Shown here: one piece after another, positions 10,404 to 28,269 of the stretch | How positions within the stretch are numbered: the stretch's first letter is position 1 | Layout: each line of letters begins with the position of its first letter | NCBI GenBank assembly: GCA_002256485.1 | Contig: NNSG01000006.1 | Location: forward strand, 62,001 to 126,000 | Length of the DNA: 64,000 nucleotides | Reading direction: 5' to 3' | From: Fidelibacterota bacterium 408169 | Lineage (GTDB): Bacteria; Fidelibacterota; Marinisomatia; Marinisomatales; TCS55 | Position numbers and translations under genes: made by a program | The notes under the pieces: generated by a model | Told to the model about the DNA's origin: nothing | What the model saw: the letters and a program-made list of their open reading frames with translations, nothing else | The model's database searches: none

Positions 10404-10425
10404 AATTAAATCCAAACAAACCCTT

Positions 10426-10496
10426 TGGGGCGTCGTCTAAGGGTAGGACACCTGGTTTTGGTCCAGGCAGTTGGGGTTCGAATCCCTGCGCCCCAG
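10426..10496 (+). tRNA. tRNA-Gln (anticodon TTG)
   Basis: Acceptor TGGGGCG/CGCCCCA, anticodon arm CCTGG-TTTTGGT-CCAGG, T arm TTGGG-GTTCGAAT-CCCTG; CCA not encoded. Confidence 0.93.
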
Positions 10497-10532
10497 CAGA
10501 AAGAATTAGGAGAATGGCAGATTTCCTGAAAT

Positions 10533-10595
10533 GAATCCCTGCCTGTCCGCCGTAATCCCGCAGTGGCGGGATGTAGGAGGGCGCCCCAGCAGAAA
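10533..10595 (+). repeat. Partial duplicate of the tRNA-Gln 3' end, split by a 38-nt insert
   Basis: gaatccctgc (10533-10542) + 38 nt + gcgccccagcagaaa (10581-10595), both matching 10480-10502. Confidence 0.8.
10555..10572. repeat. Perfect hairpin ATCCCGC-agtg-GCGGGAT within the insert
   Basis: 7-bp arms, 4-nt loop, locally GC-rich. Confidence 0.75.
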
Positions 10596-10601
10596 AATAT
10601 T

Positions 10602-11549
10602 ATGAGTAAAGATACCATAAAATTATTTACAGGACGAAGCAATCCCCGCCTTGGAGAACAAATCGCGGAATATCTGAGCGTTCCATTAGGCCAATTATCC
10701 ATTAAGGATTTTGCCGATGGGGAGATTTGGATCAAGTTTGAGGATAATATCCGCAACAGGGATGTGTTTATTATCCAGAGCACCAATGGTCCGGCGAAAA
10801 ACATTCTGGAACTTGTTCTTATTTTAGATGCAGCTGTCCGGGCTTCTGCTAAAAGTGTTACAGCCGTGATACCCTATTTTGGGTATGCCAGGCAGGATAG
10901 GAAAGATACACCACGAGTACCTATTTCAGCACGAGTTATGGTAGACATGTTTACTGCAGCCGGTACGGACAGAATTGTCACAATGGATTTACACTCAACC
11001 CAGATTCAAGGGTTTGCGAATATTCCGTTTGATCATCTTTATAGCCGTATGGTCTTGATGGATAAAATCAAGGCATTAGGTTTGGATCCTGAAAATTCTG
11101 TTGTTCTTTCTCCTGATGTGGGATCAGCTCGTATGAGTCAGGCTTATGCAAAACGGTTGGGCATGCATTTTGCTTTAATTGATAAACGGCGTTATGCACC
11201 GAACCAAGCAGAAGTCATGCATTTAATTGGTGAACTTAAAGGGAAAGATGTCTTAATTATTGATGATATGATTGATACAGCAGGAACGATAGTAAATGCC
11301 GCTGATGCTGCTAAGGAAAATGGTGCAAATTCAGTAACAGCAGTTGCGACACACCCCCTTTTATCTGGATCGGCAATAGACAGGATAAAATCTTCAGCAA
11401 TCAGTCAGTTGATTGTAACAGATACTGTCAAGATACCAGAAGAAAAATTATTTAATAAAATGAAAATAGTAACAGTTTCCAACATTTTTGCTGAAGCGAT
11501 CAATCGTATTCATGAAGGCGAATCTGTGAGCTCACTGTTCGAATTTTAA
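10602..11549 (+). CDS. prs: Ribose-phosphate pyrophosphokinase
   Basis: LFTGRSNPRLGEQIAEYL...FADGEIWIK...YFGYARQDRK...DMHSTQ-like MDLHSTQIQGF...VLIIDDMIDTAGT; ATG at 10602. Confidence 0.97.
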   Translation: MSKDTIKLFTGRSNPRLGEQIAEYLSVPLGQLSIKDFADGEIWIKFEDNIRNRDVFIIQSTNGPAKNILELVLILDAAVRASAKSVTAVIPYFGYARQDRKDTPRVPISARVMVDMFTAAGTDRIVTMDLHSTQIQGFANIPFDHLYSRMVLMDKIKALGLDPENSVVLSPDVGSARMSQAYAKRLGMHFALIDKRRYAPNQAEVMHLIGELKGKDVLIIDDMIDTAGTIVNAADAAKENGANSVTAVATHPLLSGSAIDRIKSSAISQLIVTDTVKIPEEKLFNKMKIVTVSNIFAEAINRIHEGESVSSLFEF

Positions 11550-16271: not shown

Positions 16272-18506
16272 ATGATCATGTTTGCAGAAGTTGCTTTCCC
16301 GATCTCTAGTTATTGCCAATTTACTTACCAAATTCCAAAAGAATTAATTGGCTCTATTCAAGTTGGAACGCGTGTAAAAGCCCCCTTAGGTAAACGTATA
16401 GTTACGGGCATAGTTGTTAATAAATCTACAAAATCAGAATTTAAAGGTAAACATAAACAGATTAAGGAATTAGTTGACCTTCAACTGGTAATGGATGAAA
16501 AACTGTGGAAATTAGTAACATGGATGAGCACATATTATTTTACCCCGATTGGGCAAGTAGTAAAAACAGCTTTACCATCAAACTTATCAGCAAAGTATAC
16601 ACCGCCAACAACAAGCATCATTTCATTCAAAACATGGGGAGGTGATTACAAACAATTGCAAAAAAGATCCCCCGCACAAGCAAAAGTATTGAAACATCTA
16701 TCTGCTCAAAAAGGGGCTATTCCCATATCCGCACTCAAGCATTTAGTCAGTAATCCCAGTGCAATTTGCAAAGCATTATTTGAAAAAGATCTAGTTGATT
16801 TAGATGAAGTAACGAATCTACCCGATGTAACCGGGTTTACATTTTCAAAAATCCATAAAGAAATAAAATTCACAGATGAACAGCAGCTGGCGATAGATGA
16901 TTTAAATACAAAATTGAATTCAGGAAAATTCAGCCCAACATTACTCCATGGCGTTACAGGAAGCGGCAAAACAGAAATATATATTGAGCTTGTACGTCAA
17001 ACCTTGGAGCAGAACAAATCAGCAATATTACTGCTACCGGAAATATCATTAACGCCTCAAATCGCTGGAAGATTCCGAGCTGTATTTGGTGACCAGGTTG
17101 CATTATGGCATTCAAAACTATCCCATGCAGCACGGGCCTGGACTTGGAAAAAGATTTGTTCAGGAGAATTTAATGTTGTGATAGGTGCCCGCAGTGCCAT
17201 ATTTGCTCCAGTAAAAAATATTGGCGTAATTATAATTGATGAAGAACAGGAAAATTCATTTAAACAAGGGTCTCCAGCGCCAAGATATCATGCACGAGAC
17301 ATTGCTTTGATGCGTGGAAAACTGCACAAGGCAGTTGTGCTTATGTCCAGCGCCACTCCCAGTTTGGAAAGTTATTATAATTATGTCCAAGGGAAATATG
17401 ATTATATACGATTAAATGATAGATTCGGCAATGCTAATTATCCTCGAGTTTATGTTGCGGACATGATCAAAGAACAGGAAGAGACTGGTAAATTTCAGCA
17501 AGTTATTTCCAGCACGCTCCAGAAAAAAATGGAGAGAAAATTAGTCAAAGGTGAACAAGTTATTTTATTGCAAAACAGACGGGGATTTGCACCAATAATG
17601 CGTTGTGGTGATTGCGGCCATGTGGAAACATGTGTTCAATGTGAAATTGCCTTAACCTACCATAGTTACAAGCGCATGCTTAAATGCCATTTTTGTGGTT
17701 TTGAAACCGGAAGTATATCAACAGCATGTCAGAAATGCAGTAGTATAAATATAAAGCTTCTAGGAATTGGCACTCAAAAAGTAGAAGATATTATTACTGA
17801 TATTTTCCCAAACATTAAAGTGGCAAGAATTGATTATGACACGACACGCAACATTGCTTCCATGACAAAGGTTTTGGAGCAATTTGCTATCGGAAAAATT
17901 GATGTGTTGATTGGAACTCAAATGATTGCTAAAGGATTAGATTTTGACAATGCAACACTTGTGGGAATTGTAAATGGTGATACCGGTCTTTTTTTACCTG
18001 ACTTTCGTTCAGGAGAAAAAGTGTTTCAACTTATTTATCAAGCTGCAGGCCGATCCGGAAGACGGAAGTCCGGAGAAGTAGTAATTCAAACATATAATCC
18101 CGACAATCCTGTATTAAAACACGCTGCCAAATTGGATCAGAAAACGTATTACAATATTGCCTTGAGTGAACGTCAAGAATTGCAATATGCTCCCTTTTCT
18201 TGGATGATACGTATTGAAATTGAAGGAGCAAAAAAAGAACATGTAAATACAACCGCAGAAATAATATGCAGCAAATTACGGCCATCTCCAAAAGGATTAG
18301 TTATATTGGGACCTGCAAATTGTTATCGGGAACGATTGCGCGGTAAATATCGTATGCATATCATGCTTAAATCAAATAAAACACATGATATTAATGGCAA
18401 TAAAATGCATGCATATTTACAAAAAAGAATATCTGCAAAATTATTCGATAAAATTCCTTCAGGCGTCAAAGCCTTTATTGATGTAAACCCGGTGTCTGTT
18501 TTATGA
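16272..18506 (+). CDS. priA: Primosomal protein N' (replication restart helicase)
   Basis: LLHGVTGSGKTEIYIE, DEEQENSFKQ, zinc-binding CxxC repeats, GTQMIAKGLDFDN, QAAGRSGR. Confidence 0.97.
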   Translation: MIMFAEVAFPISSYCQFTYQIPKELIGSIQVGTRVKAPLGKRIVTGIVVNKSTKSEFKGKHKQIKELVDLQLVMDEKLWKLVTWMSTYYFTPIGQVVKTALPSNLSAKYTPPTTSIISFKTWGGDYKQLQKRSPAQAKVLKHLSAQKGAIPISALKHLVSNPSAICKALFEKDLVDLDEVTNLPDVTGFTFSKIHKEIKFTDEQQLAIDDLNTKLNSGKFSPTLLHGVTGSGKTEIYIELVRQTLEQNKSAILLLPEISLTPQIAGRFRAVFGDQVALWHSKLSHAARAWTWKKICSGEFNVVIGARSAIFAPVKNIGVIIIDEEQENSFKQGSPAPRYHARDIALMRGKLHKAVVLMSSATPSLESYYNYVQGKYDYIRLNDRFGNANYPRVYVADMIKEQEETGKFQQVISSTLQKKMERKLVKGEQVILLQNRRGFAPIMRCGDCGHVETCVQCEIALTYHSYKRMLKCHFCGFETGSISTACQKCSSINIKLLGIGTQKVEDIITDIFPNIKVARIDYDTTRNIASMTKVLEQFAIGKIDVLIGTQMIAKGLDFDNATLVGIVNGDTGLFLPDFRSGEKVFQLIYQAAGRSGRRKSGEVVIQTYNPDNPVLKHAAKLDQKTYYNIALSERQELQYAPFSWMIRIEIEGAKKEHVNTTAEIICSKLRPSPKGLVILGPANCYRERLRGKYRMHIMLKSNKTHDINGNKMHAYLQKRISAKLFDKIPSGVKAFIDVNPVSVL

Positions 18507-19402
18507 GAGTTTTTGTTTATAGTTTATTATTAAAAATATTATTTGCGGGAGCCACATTTCCTGGGCTTGAAAATTGGTATCATCCCCATCGCATGGCGCT
18601 TACAGGCGCTGGAGGCGCTATTCAAAACATTACTGCAGATGCGGTCAACCCAGCGGCTTTATGGATGCTGCCAAGGCAATTTGAAGTGAGTTTTATTTCT
18701 TACCCTGCAGATATAACAGCACAATCAGTTCATTTATCTTTACCCGGGAAAGAGTCGGTAACAGTTTATGGTTTACGTCATTTAAACTATGGTTTGTTTT
18801 CAGGCCGAGATGAATTAAATCAAGAGACTGAAAATTACTCCGCTACTGATACATGGTTGAACTGGGCAGCAGCAGGACACTCTTCACGGTGGCCATTAGC
18901 CTGGGGTATTAGTGCGGGTGTTTTTTATAGTACCATCGAAGACGAGCAAGCAGCACTGTTTACGTTTTCAGCCGGTGCTATTGTGGATTTAAAAAAATTG
19001 AATTCTAAACTGGGTGTTAGTTTGATAAATTCTGGATCCGTCATAAAAAACTATTCTGAAAACGAAGAAGAACTGCCAACAGCGATTGTAATTTCGATTT
19101 CAAAAAAACTTGCTTATTTACCATTGACCTTTTCACTGGATGCATATAATAGATTTAGCACAAAAATGCCTGAAATGCGTTTGGGTGGTGTCTTTGCACT
19201 TCCTTATGGGTTACAACTAAAGTTGGGTACAAGTACAAATCGATTACAGCAATCAACGGGCCAAAGTTTATCCGGTGACTTTTTTGCTGATACAGGTTTA
19301 GGTGTGGGGTGGATATATGAAAATTATAATTTTGAGACAGGGGTGTATTCCTATGGCTCCGGAGGTTGGATTTCCGGACTGGCAGTAGGTATTATGTTTT
19401 GA
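18503..19402 (+). CDS. Outer-membrane beta-barrel protein, PorQ/PorV-like
   Basis: Signal-like N-terminus, MALTGAGGAIQNITADAVNPAALWMLPRQFEVSF, aromatic-rich strands, C-terminal F. Confidence 0.55.
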   Translation: MRVFVYSLLLKILFAGATFPGLENWYHPHRMALTGAGGAIQNITADAVNPAALWMLPRQFEVSFISYPADITAQSVHLSLPGKESVTVYGLRHLNYGLFSGRDELNQETENYSATDTWLNWAAAGHSSRWPLAWGISAGVFYSTIEDEQAALFTFSAGAIVDLKKLNSKLGVSLINSGSVIKNYSENEEELPTAIVISISKKLAYLPLTFSLDAYNRFSTKMPEMRLGGVFALPYGLQLKLGTSTNRLQQSTGQSLSGDFFADTGLGVGWIYENYNFETGVYSYGSGGWISGLAVGIMF

Positions 19403-19405
19403 TGC

Positions 19406-22168
19406 GTGATTAACAAACGTATAATAATAAATAGTATCTGTGGTGTATTTCTATCCACTTTCTTAGTTGGAACCGAACTTGAAATAAATTATAACCTTGA
19501 TGTCTACTTTCATCCCCGGACAGATCAAGTCTCCGGTTTCATAGAGGGTGTTAATCATGTCCGCATAGTTAATAATTCTCAAACAGCATTAAAGGAATTA
19601 TACTTTCATAATAGCACCAACCACGATTCACATACATCTCCTTTATCAGAATTATCATCAGTACGTTGTTCACATGGAGGTATAGTTACGGGGCTGGACA
19701 GTCTCGTTTTAACAATCGGTCTGTATCCTCCGGTTCAGGTGGGTGAAACAGTCATTGTTGATATCCCTTTTAAAACGTATTTCACTTCAAAGGGGGACCC
19801 AAATCTACCTGCTTATGGTATCCGAAAAGATACGGTTACCTACAATGCCATTCATTACTACCCTGTACTGGAATATTTTTATAATGATGGATGGCATCCT
19901 GCTGATTATGGAAATTCTATAAAACCTCATTCTAATTTTGCAAAATATGAAGTGGACTTAACTGTACCGACGGGTTTTTTGATGGGGACATCAGGGCGCG
20001 TATTAAATAAGGTTGAATTAGAAACAGGGCATACCAAATATAAAATCCAAGATAATCATACACTTTCAAGCAGTGTAGTTTTTATTAAGGGAATGCAAAA
20101 ATATCCATTTAATATCAGTGGTATCACGATAGAAATCATTGCACAAAAATCGCAGGAAAATCATGTTAAGAATATTCAAGCTCGTTTGGAAAAATTGATT
20201 CCTTTTTACGAAGAACAGTTTGGTAATTCATTAATGGATAAATTGATTATCAGCAGCGGATATTCTATTGGGTCGCGAGCTATTACAACAAGCAATTATA
20301 TTATTTTTCAAGATAAAATTGACAAGGGTCATGTATTGGATCATGAATTAGCACATCAATGGTTCGGTCTGTCAATTCAAGCTGATGCATATACAGAAAC
20401 CTGGTTAAATGAATCTCTTGCTGAATATGCGAGTTGGCTATTTGAACGATCTCAAAAAGTAAAACCTGACCCCTTTACATTTACTAAACCTATCCCAGAT
20501 TTGAATATTTGGCCCGAAATTAAAGCCATGGGTATGGAAGATTGGACACAGTTTTTTCTGGATGTAATTGGTGAAAAATCACTTCCACCTATCTATCGTC
20601 CCGGGAAACAAACTAATTGGGAAGAAGCTGCAAATATATATAGTAAATATATTGTAGGCAGTCATGCATTGCAGATGCTGCAAGCATCTGAAGGAGATTC
20701 TATAATGAAGAAAATTATGCTTGATTATTCTATGATGTTTAGAGGGGAAACTGCCACTACAGAAAATTTCATTGATATAATTAAACAACACACAGACGAT
20801 AAAATAGCAGATAATTTTCGATTAGCACTTTCAACAAATCTACGATCTGATTTTAAAATTAAAGATGTAACAAGCCAATATAATGTAAAAAGACAATGGA
20901 ATAATAAAATTGCTATAGAGTATGAAAGCAGTTGGCTTTTACCGGTGGATATTTTAATTATAACTGAAAATGGAGACAGCACATTATTACCACAGAAAGA
21001 TATTAATAAATACAATACAATTGAAATAACTACCTCAACAAAATTGTTATCAGCAGAGCTTGATCCCAATAAACGACTATTTGATAATAACCGGTTTAAT
21101 AACCGCTGGCCTCGACGCATATCACTACAGCCAGATTATGGTTTACCGCACTGGGAAACATATAAGGTATATTATCGACCGAAGCTTAAAAGGGATTGGC
21201 GCGGCAATTGGCGAACAGGAGTAAAATTATCGGGCGGGTTGGGAATTAACCTGATGCCGATAATGCCAGCTTTTTACCAAAACCTATTTGACTTGGAGAT
21301 TACGTTTTCAACTGGTGTACCAGAATATAATTGGGGTGGAAAAGTGAGTTATAAAACTCCTTTGAAATCTACAGTCAACACTTATTGGGAGCTGGAGATG
21401 GGATATGAATATCCTAAAAAATGGACAAAAATTGCATTTAATAATTATCTGGGTGAGCCAAGATATTTAGCTGTACATGGCGAATCATTTTATTCCAGAT
21501 TAACAACAACATTTTCTAACACTGTATATATTTCGTCAGATTCAAGCGATTGGTGGCCGGTGGGTAGAAATATTAAATTGAAAGAAAAATGGTCAATTTT
21601 TTCTTATTCAACAGATCAGCGATACCTTATGGAAGTCCACCTTCTTGGAGGTTTTCAGGAAGAGTCGTCATTTTATAATTTTGGAGTTTCTGCAGATGTA
21701 GAAACTCATAAAATAGAAGGTTTTATTATTCGTATTCATAGTGAAGCCGGTTTTGTTTGGGATGAACGCGGGGGAAACGAACTTTCTTATAGGTTATTAT
21801 ATATCCCAAAGATCTGGCAACAACGTGAAAGTCAAATCCCCCTTTTTCGCGGTGTTTCAATTATTGAAAAAGAATGGCAAAAGAATATTTTCAGCAGCGG
21901 GATAAGTGTTGGCTGGGAGACGAAAACAATAGCATGGCCCATGGTGTTTATCGATGGAGCAGTCATTAGTAATAAGCAAGGAACATGGCTGGATCGAATG
22001 GATTATTTGAATAATAGTGATTCTGTGTATTTGACAGCAGGTGTTGGCCTTGAGTCTCAAACAATGATGGAAGTTGGATTATATTTTCCAATTTGGGTTT
22101 CTCATCCCATTAGAGGTGAAAATAATTTTGCTTGGAGAATGCTAATGCAATGGGGATTCTATTTTTAA
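19406..22168 (+). CDS. M1-type zinc metallopeptidase with long C-terminal region resembling an outer-membrane barrel (GTG start)
   Basis: HELAHQWFGLSIQADAYTETWLNESLAEY = HEXXH-18-E; C-terminal third rich in alternating strands, ends WRMLMQWGFYF. Confidence 0.8.
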   Translation: MINKRIIINSICGVFLSTFLVGTELEINYNLDVYFHPRTDQVSGFIEGVNHVRIVNNSQTALKELYFHNSTNHDSHTSPLSELSSVRCSHGGIVTGLDSLVLTIGLYPPVQVGETVIVDIPFKTYFTSKGDPNLPAYGIRKDTVTYNAIHYYPVLEYFYNDGWHPADYGNSIKPHSNFAKYEVDLTVPTGFLMGTSGRVLNKVELETGHTKYKIQDNHTLSSSVVFIKGMQKYPFNISGITIEIIAQKSQENHVKNIQARLEKLIPFYEEQFGNSLMDKLIISSGYSIGSRAITTSNYIIFQDKIDKGHVLDHELAHQWFGLSIQADAYTETWLNESLAEYASWLFERSQKVKPDPFTFTKPIPDLNIWPEIKAMGMEDWTQFFLDVIGEKSLPPIYRPGKQTNWEEAANIYSKYIVGSHALQMLQASEGDSIMKKIMLDYSMMFRGETATTENFIDIIKQHTDDKIADNFRLALSTNLRSDFKIKDVTSQYNVKRQWNNKIAIEYESSWLLPVDILIITENGDSTLLPQKDINKYNTIEITTSTKLLSAELDPNKRLFDNNRFNNRWPRRISLQPDYGLPHWETYKVYYRPKLKRDWRGNWRTGVKLSGGLGINLMPIMPAFYQNLFDLEITFSTGVPEYNWGGKVSYKTPLKSTVNTYWELEMGYEYPKKWTKIAFNNYLGEPRYLAVHGESFYSRLTTTFSNTVYISSDSSDWWPVGRNIKLKEKWSIFSYSTDQRYLMEVHLLGGFQEESSFYNFGVSADVETHKIEGFIIRIHSEAGFVWDERGGNELSYRLLYIPKIWQQRESQIPLFRGVSIIEKEWQKNIFSSGISVGWETKTIAWPMVFIDGAVISNKQGTWLDRMDYLNNSDSVYLTAGVGLESQTMMEVGLYFPIWVSHPIRGENNFAWRMLMQWGFYF

Positions 22169-27651: not shown

Positions 27652-28269
27652 ATGATTAAGATTAGGAAGTTATGGATAATTTTATTGTTTATCACTGGAA
27701 CGAGTTACGGACAATTTGAAATTGGAGTGGATATCTTTAACCGATATGTATGGCGAGGTACAGATTTTGGAAATGCTGCCAGCCTTCAACCGTATTTAGA
27801 ATACTCCAAGGGACCAATCAAAATTGGAGCTTGGAGCTCTTGGGCTGTAAATAATGGAAACGCAAATGAGAACGATGTTTTCATCGCTGCAAGTCTTGGA
27901 GGATTATCTTTATCTATAACAGATTACTTTTTCCCGGCCTATGATGGCGCGGATCGATTTTTTGATTATTCCGAAGAGGGTGGAGAACATTTTGTTGAAG
28001 CTGGAATTAGTACAACTATTAAAGCTGTGGATATTTTTGCAGGGTATTTTTTCATAGATGCCAATAATTCAACATATTTAGAATTTTCATATGGGCCTGT
28101 TATCCTAGGCATGGGTAATGGGATGTTTACTATTGAGCCAGAGGATGAAAACGATTCCTTCGGTATAGTTAATATAGGTATTACTGCTGGCAGAGATTTA
28201 TTCTCAGCTGCGTATATCATTAATCCCCAACAGGAAACATCCTTTCTTGTTTTTGGTGTATCTTTATAA
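27652..28269 (+). CDS. Putative outer-membrane porin-like protein (TorF-like) next to amt
   Basis: Signal peptide, FEIGVDIFNRYVWRGTDFGNAASLQPYLEYSKGPIKIGAWSSWA, C-terminal LVFGVSL. Confidence 0.6.
   Translation: MIKIRKLWIILLFITGTSYGQFEIGVDIFNRYVWRGTDFGNAASLQPYLEYSKGPIKIGAWSSWAVNNGNANENDVFIAASLGGLSLSITDYFFPAYDGADRFFDYSEEGGEHFVEAGISTTIKAVDIFAGYFFIDANNSTYLEFSYGPVILGMGNGMFTIEPEDENDSFGIVNIGITAGRDLFSAAYIINPQQETSFLVFGVSL

Follow-up and report, generated by a model that had tools for sequence, protein, structure and literature searches.

A 920-aa protein encoded in a Candidatus Neomarinimicrobiota genome is probably an outer-membrane-anchored M1 metallopeptidase, in which an Omp85-type barrel would hold a periplasmic M1 part that acts as an endo- or oligopeptidase and has a second, non-catalytic job. 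The sequence comparisons support the C-terminal ~360 residues as an Omp85-type barrel in place of M1 domain IV, and from the same comparisons we infer the activity and the substrate of the fusion protein.

The gene and its peptidase half

The gene lies on the forward strand of the window (the whole 64,000-nucleotide stretch of DNA that was analysed) as an ORF of 920 aa, with a GTG start, occupying exactly positions 19406-22168 (genome G000). The ORF is real, as full-length orthologues occur in independent assemblies (at least 13 other genomes, from several such assemblies) and because dN/dS is low, at 0.11-0.19 for the whole gene, 0.11-0.16 for the catalytic domain, and 0.07-0.14 for the barrel, the most constrained part of the protein. 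The gene and the features of its peptidase half are as follows, with approximate limits for domains I and II.

19406..22168, +, M1-Omp85 fusion gene (ORF of 920 aa, full-length orthologues, purifying selection)
19406..19471, +, probable N-terminal signal peptide MINKRIIINSICGVFLSTFLVG, read from the sequence
19475..20125, +, M1 domain I, the N-terminal beta domain (match of the relatives' profile to F3 and their alignment to the window protein)
20126..20839, +, M1 domain II, catalytic and thermolysin-like (PF01433 at residues 306-468)
20258..20311, +, position of the missing GxMEN, GYSIGSRAITTSNYIIFQ (alignment with GGGMEYP and GGMEH relatives)
20342..20356, +, zinc-binding HELAH, residues 313-317 (sequence, Pfam and orthologue comparison)
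20411..20413, +, third zinc ligand, Glu336 (HEXXH-X18-E spacing and alignment)
20648..20650, +, candidate catalytic Tyr415 in YIVG (aligned with the YxK/YxKG tyrosine of M1 enzymes)
20846..21085, +, M1 domain III-like beta domain, immediately 5' of the barrel (the relatives' match to F3 ends at residue 473 of F3)

The one Pfam domain in the protein is Peptidase_M1 (PF01433; residues 306-468, E = 1.1e-13), with a score (51.8 bits) above the curated cut-off of 27.7 that places it with the M1 catalytic domains. Residues 313-336 (HELAHQWFGLSIQADAYTETWLNE) form HEXXH-X18-E, the zinc site of peptidase family M1, in agreement with the M1-type metallopeptidase named in the first-pass annotation. Tyr415 aligns with the tyrosine of YxK(G), with valine in place of the lysine after it and a second tyrosine (Tyr412) close by, and no examined member of its own genus or the sister genus has lost Tyr415 or a zinc ligand. 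The absence of the usual upstream GxMEN, also remarked on in that annotation, was borne out by alignment with the phylum's M1 proteins: at this place the window protein has GSRAITTSNYI, its ~980-aa relatives in the phylum have GGGMEYP, and the soluble M1 proteins have GGMEH (two) or GMEH (one). In M1 aminopeptidases the glutamate of GxMEN binds the free N-terminus of the substrate, and because this anchoring residue is lost the protein is not expected to be a strict aminopeptidase; its enzyme is, as far as the sequence indicates, most likely not a standard aminopeptidase. With the zinc site intact and the GxMEN glutamate gone, it would bind peptides or unfolded chains and cut them with no strict requirement that the N-terminus be free, in the manner of an endo- or oligopeptidase.

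A profile built from ten distant full-length relatives matched the F3 aminopeptidase (profile positions 202-571, F3 residues 115-473, E = 1.7e-14), over a span of F3 that we take to run from the catalytic domain into beta domain III. Because this match stops after domain III, M1 domains I-III appear to be retained and the next part not to be the helical domain IV of M1 aminopeptidases, which was not found; the barrel comes next. No match to a POTRA domain was found in the window protein, and M1 domain III stands directly before the barrel; a POTRA domain is usual, though not universal, among Omp85 proteins. With the M1 aminopeptidases (Tricorn-interacting factor F3, ERAP1/2, PepN) the protein shares the layout of domains I-III and HEXXH-X18-E, but it differs from them in lacking GxMEN and in carrying a barrel instead of domain IV.

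The C-terminal barrel

21089..22165, +, Omp85-type C-terminal barrel, residues 562-920 (hhalign to the relatives' barrels, the relatives' NF047779 matches, amphipathic pattern)
21848..21853, +, Arg815-Gly816, counterpart of the Omp85 loop-6 (V/I)RG(Y/F) (invariance in the window-clade set, alignment with MRGY and LRGF relatives)
21953..21955, +, Asp850, counterpart of the lid-lock aspartate of strand-13 (F/G)xDxG (invariance in the window-clade set, FxDxG in relatives)
22136..22165, +, C-terminal strand RMLMQWGFYF, candidate BAM recognition signal (conserved ending)

Hydrophobic and polar residues alternate across residues 562-920 well beyond shuffled columns (mean z 6.1, fraction z 7.2), compared to z values of 0.6 and 1.1 for the M1 part in the same test and about 2 for the BamA barrel of the phylum under the same scoring. 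A simple scan marked 21 candidate amphipathic segments in the barrel; an Omp85 barrel is 16-stranded, and we infer that number here. The ending, as QWGFYF/Y/L, is conserved in the order-level orthologues.

Homology was traced by profile comparison (hhalign), in which the window-clade barrel matched the distant relatives' barrels over 350 columns (E = 2.9e-27) and the GGGMEYP family's barrel over 331 columns (E = 3.1e-10), with reversed-profile controls at E = 0.012 or worse. A single-sequence tblastn of the window protein against one distant relative (G209) extended nearly end to end (residues 14-914, E = 3.7e-36). All ten distant relatives matched NCBIfam NF047779 (Omp85_fam) in the corresponding region (best E = 2.1e-11), every match falling below the model's curated whole-protein cut-off of 200 bits. 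Omp85_fam was listed for no member of the window-clade set, the window protein included; hhalign of the window-clade barrel against the phylum's BamA barrels gave E = 0.017, not better than the best reversed control (0.012), and the same barrel, used as a profile query, had no match in Pfam or the PDB. Because the direct BamA score is not significant and the window-clade set is without Omp85_fam, the Omp85 assignment rests on the chain through the relatives, where the sequence homology is found without a direct match for the window protein, and on the motifs.

In FhaC, BamA and TamA the Omp85 lid lock pairs (V/I)RG(Y/F) in loop 6 with (F/G)xDxG in strand 13 (PMC4490367). R815, G816 and D850 are invariant across the 16 homologues of the window-clade set. 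The loop-6 motif is present as its RG core with diverged flanks (FRGV in the window, LRGF or MRGY in relatives), and strand 13 of the window protein reads FIDGA, in which F848 and D850 are kept and the last glycine has become alanine, with the full FxDxG occurring in relatives. It is very unlikely that the barrel is a mere membrane anchor for an ordinary protease, of non-Omp85 descent and similar through general barrel composition: the background-level direct score against BamA would fit such an origin, but the homologous barrels of all ten relatives match Omp85_fam and the RG and FxDxG motifs stand at equivalent positions.

Structure prediction from a four-sequence alignment gave unusable AlphaFold models (pLDDT 31 for the full protein, 33 for the barrel alone), and Foldseek with the low-confidence barrel model (pLDDT 33) returned mostly outer-membrane barrels, including BamA and TamA, none of them significant and none taken as support. 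The poor models leave some room for a conventional soluble M1 peptidase with a beta-rich C-terminus folded as a periplasmic domain, a reading made highly improbable by the Omp85 homology, the amphipathic strands and the aromatic C-terminal ending. The first-pass description of the last ~350 residues as barrel-like and ending in QWGFYF was upheld by the alternation (z 6-7) and the Omp85-type homology through relatives, and the soluble M1 C-terminal domain that would contradict it was not found, with M1 similarity ending after domain III and an Omp85-like region following; the profile search against Omp85 barrels that it proposed was positive by way of the relatives (10/10 for Omp85_fam) and negative as a direct match for the window protein.

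Orientation, relatives and known fusions

In the proposed mechanism, the signal peptide would lead to export through Sec, and BAM would recognise the C-terminal strand and insert residues ~562-920 into the outer membrane, where they would form an Omp85-type barrel with its lid lock in loop 6. This barrel would replace M1 domain IV and leave M1 domains I-III on the periplasmic side, in the place that POTRA domains take in other Omp85 proteins. In Omp85 barrels the number of strands is even and both ends lie in the periplasm. Because of this topology and the precedent of PlpD, an Omp85 fusion with an enzyme part shown experimentally to stay in the periplasm (PMC11116518), the M1 part is more likely periplasmic than on the surface by this analogy. 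Of the earlier suggestion of a surface or periplasmic enzyme anchored as its own barrel, the fusion is thus supported, with the periplasm likelier than the surface.

The relatives bear on what the two halves do. Zinc ligands are lost in three order-level orthologues (L017, L019, L020), and in the distant families f29/f26 HEXXH is kept only in L079 among the complete proteins examined. Families f30/f31 hold a 580-690-aa form, found in ~22 genomes of one clade (L024-L035, L095-L098), which begins after the zinc site and consists of the last part of the catalytic domain followed by domain III and the barrel. On a tree built from the shared C-terminal part of the relatives, the active and inactive labels need 5-6 changes, at least four of them forced by well-supported branches, while truncation needs one change and the GGGMEYP family forms one separate clade (100/98 support). 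Catalytic residues have been lost at least four to five times among the relatives. GxMEN is kept in the sister M1 proteins, but in the window's clade and the distant families it is absent whether the member is active or inactive. The motif was therefore lost as this branch diverged and not as the zinc site decayed.

One clade (~22 genomes) dropped the peptidase half and retained the barrel, so the barrel has its own role. Catalysis was repeatedly lost in proteins that kept the barrel, the most constrained part, which makes it probable that the protein also does something non-catalytic at the outer membrane. The repeated losses suggest that substrate binding and the barrel together do this second job, in which peptides or unfolded chains would be bound beside the Omp85 pore. 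A passenger of type Vd kind, in which the M1 domain would travel along its own barrel, or through it, and end up on the surface or be released to digest external protein, is unlikely. Such a route was first proposed for the patatin-Omp85 PlpD (PMC4104836) and a surface protease would suit a heterotroph, but the enzyme domain of PlpD was later found to be periplasmic (PMC11116518), the genome already encodes a T9SS-tailed M1 peptidase for export, and the complete disappearance of the peptidase half from one clade better fits an anchor or assembly role than display. The T9SS-tailed enzyme (G000:C48:64509-65903) is another M1 peptidase, a 649-aa frame with GGMEH present and a Por_Secre_tail, predicted to be a secreted M1 enzyme with a T9SS C-terminal sorting tail.

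The enzyme-Omp85 fusions known from the literature consulted are the patatin-like proteins and the PF00149 'Metallo' subfamily (PMC4104836). PlpD of Pseudomonas aeruginosa, a patatin-like Omp85 protein of the type Vd family, likewise joins, within a single chain, an N-terminal enzyme to an Omp85-type barrel (PMC11116518). PlpD has a patatin lipase and one POTRA, whereas the window protein has an M1 peptidase, and Pfam found neither a patatin domain nor a POTRA in it. The window protein is also without a match to PF00149, presumably the metallophosphoesterase family. It is PF00149, and not Peptidase_M1, that characterises the 'Metallo' subfamily (Heinz and Lithgow 2014, PMC4104836), which resembles the window protein in joining an N-terminal metal-dependent domain to an Omp85 barrel, a barrel related to those of the POTRA-less 'noNterm' Omp85 proteins. 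Within the phylum, the ~980-aa GGGMEYP family (L106-L123) combines an M1 core with a homologous C-terminal barrel (hhalign E = 3e-10), but it retains GGGMEYP and HEIGH/HEVGH...DE and falls in a clade separate from that of the window protein. Full-text searches of open-licence papers brought up no description of an M1-Omp85 fusion.

Enzyme-Omp85 fusions are few, and their role became a matter of debate once PlpD was found to have its patatin domain in the periplasm. The active, inactive and peptidase-less natural members of the M1-Omp85 family set apart what the enzyme does and what the barrel does, and make it testable whether a POTRA-less barrel assembles or moves proteins and whether a fused peptidase handles its clients. 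Tentatively, the family may be a new branch of Omp85 in which an M1 peptidase replaces POTRA as the periplasmic substrate module and then repeatedly decays into a pseudo-peptidase that binds substrate, or is dropped, while the barrel is kept; the outcome would be an outer-membrane device for assembly or secretion that originated as a protease. The automatic label 'M1 family metallopeptidase' can cover outer-membrane proteins.

Several further observations were made among the relatives. The 580-690-aa form has lost the strand-13 aspartate of the lid lock and mostly keeps the RG motif. The GGGMEYP family (L106-L123; ~960-1020 aa; HEIGH/HEVGH), also with an Omp85-like C-terminal barrel, is wider-spread in the phylum, and the genome's own copy (L124, G000:C1, ~245.3-248.2 kb) is split into two frames (272 and 676 aa) at an A-rich stretch, either by a sequencing error or as a broken gene. 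Viral contigs scanned for further relatives held none. Plasmid matches covered the M1 part only, and the one examined in detail, a Pseudoalteromonas M1 protein of 812 aa, is too short past the match for a 360-residue barrel.

Neighbourhood and type IX secretion

18503..19402, +, porQ-like gene (PorV/PorQ family, 299 aa), likely co-transcribed with the M1-barrel gene and ending 3 nt before its GTG

The porQ-like gene matched NCBIfam NF033711 (T9SS_PorQ; E = 5.8e-25) with 88 bits, below the curated cut-off of 220. The order priA, porQ-like gene, M1-barrel gene is kept in all order-level orthologues with covering contigs, those encoding pseudo-peptidases included, and the genome itself encodes SprA, ~56 Por_Secre_tail proteins, about 10 PorV-family proteins and three C25 peptidases. 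These features favour a T9SS partner that works with the adjacent PorQ-like protein and trims or binds T9SS cargo, a function compatible with the preferred reading. As an explanation it is nevertheless unlikely: where the M1-barrel gene is missing, porQ still adjoins priA and is followed directly by lrp (L150, L151, L161) or by other genes, so the pairing with porQ may reflect the insertion site only; the distant relatives of the M1-barrel gene are located elsewhere; and the T9SS (SprA, PorQ) is near-universal in the phylum while the M1-barrel gene is patchy, which makes their co-occurrence uninformative as a functional link. The M1-barrel protein matched no known T9SS family. To judge from the stable priA-porQ site, the M1-barrel gene seems to have been either inserted there or cleanly lost.

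Elsewhere in the window, the priA-porQ-like order (16272-19402) is phylum-wide, with or without the M1-barrel gene. An ORF at 10406-10804 (-) overlaps a tRNA-Gln (10426-10497, +) and is most likely spurious. A probable outer-membrane protein of 205 aa is encoded at 27652-28269, between gltB and an ammonium transporter gene; at 35-46% identity in orthologous loci, it is conserved less well than the genes around it.
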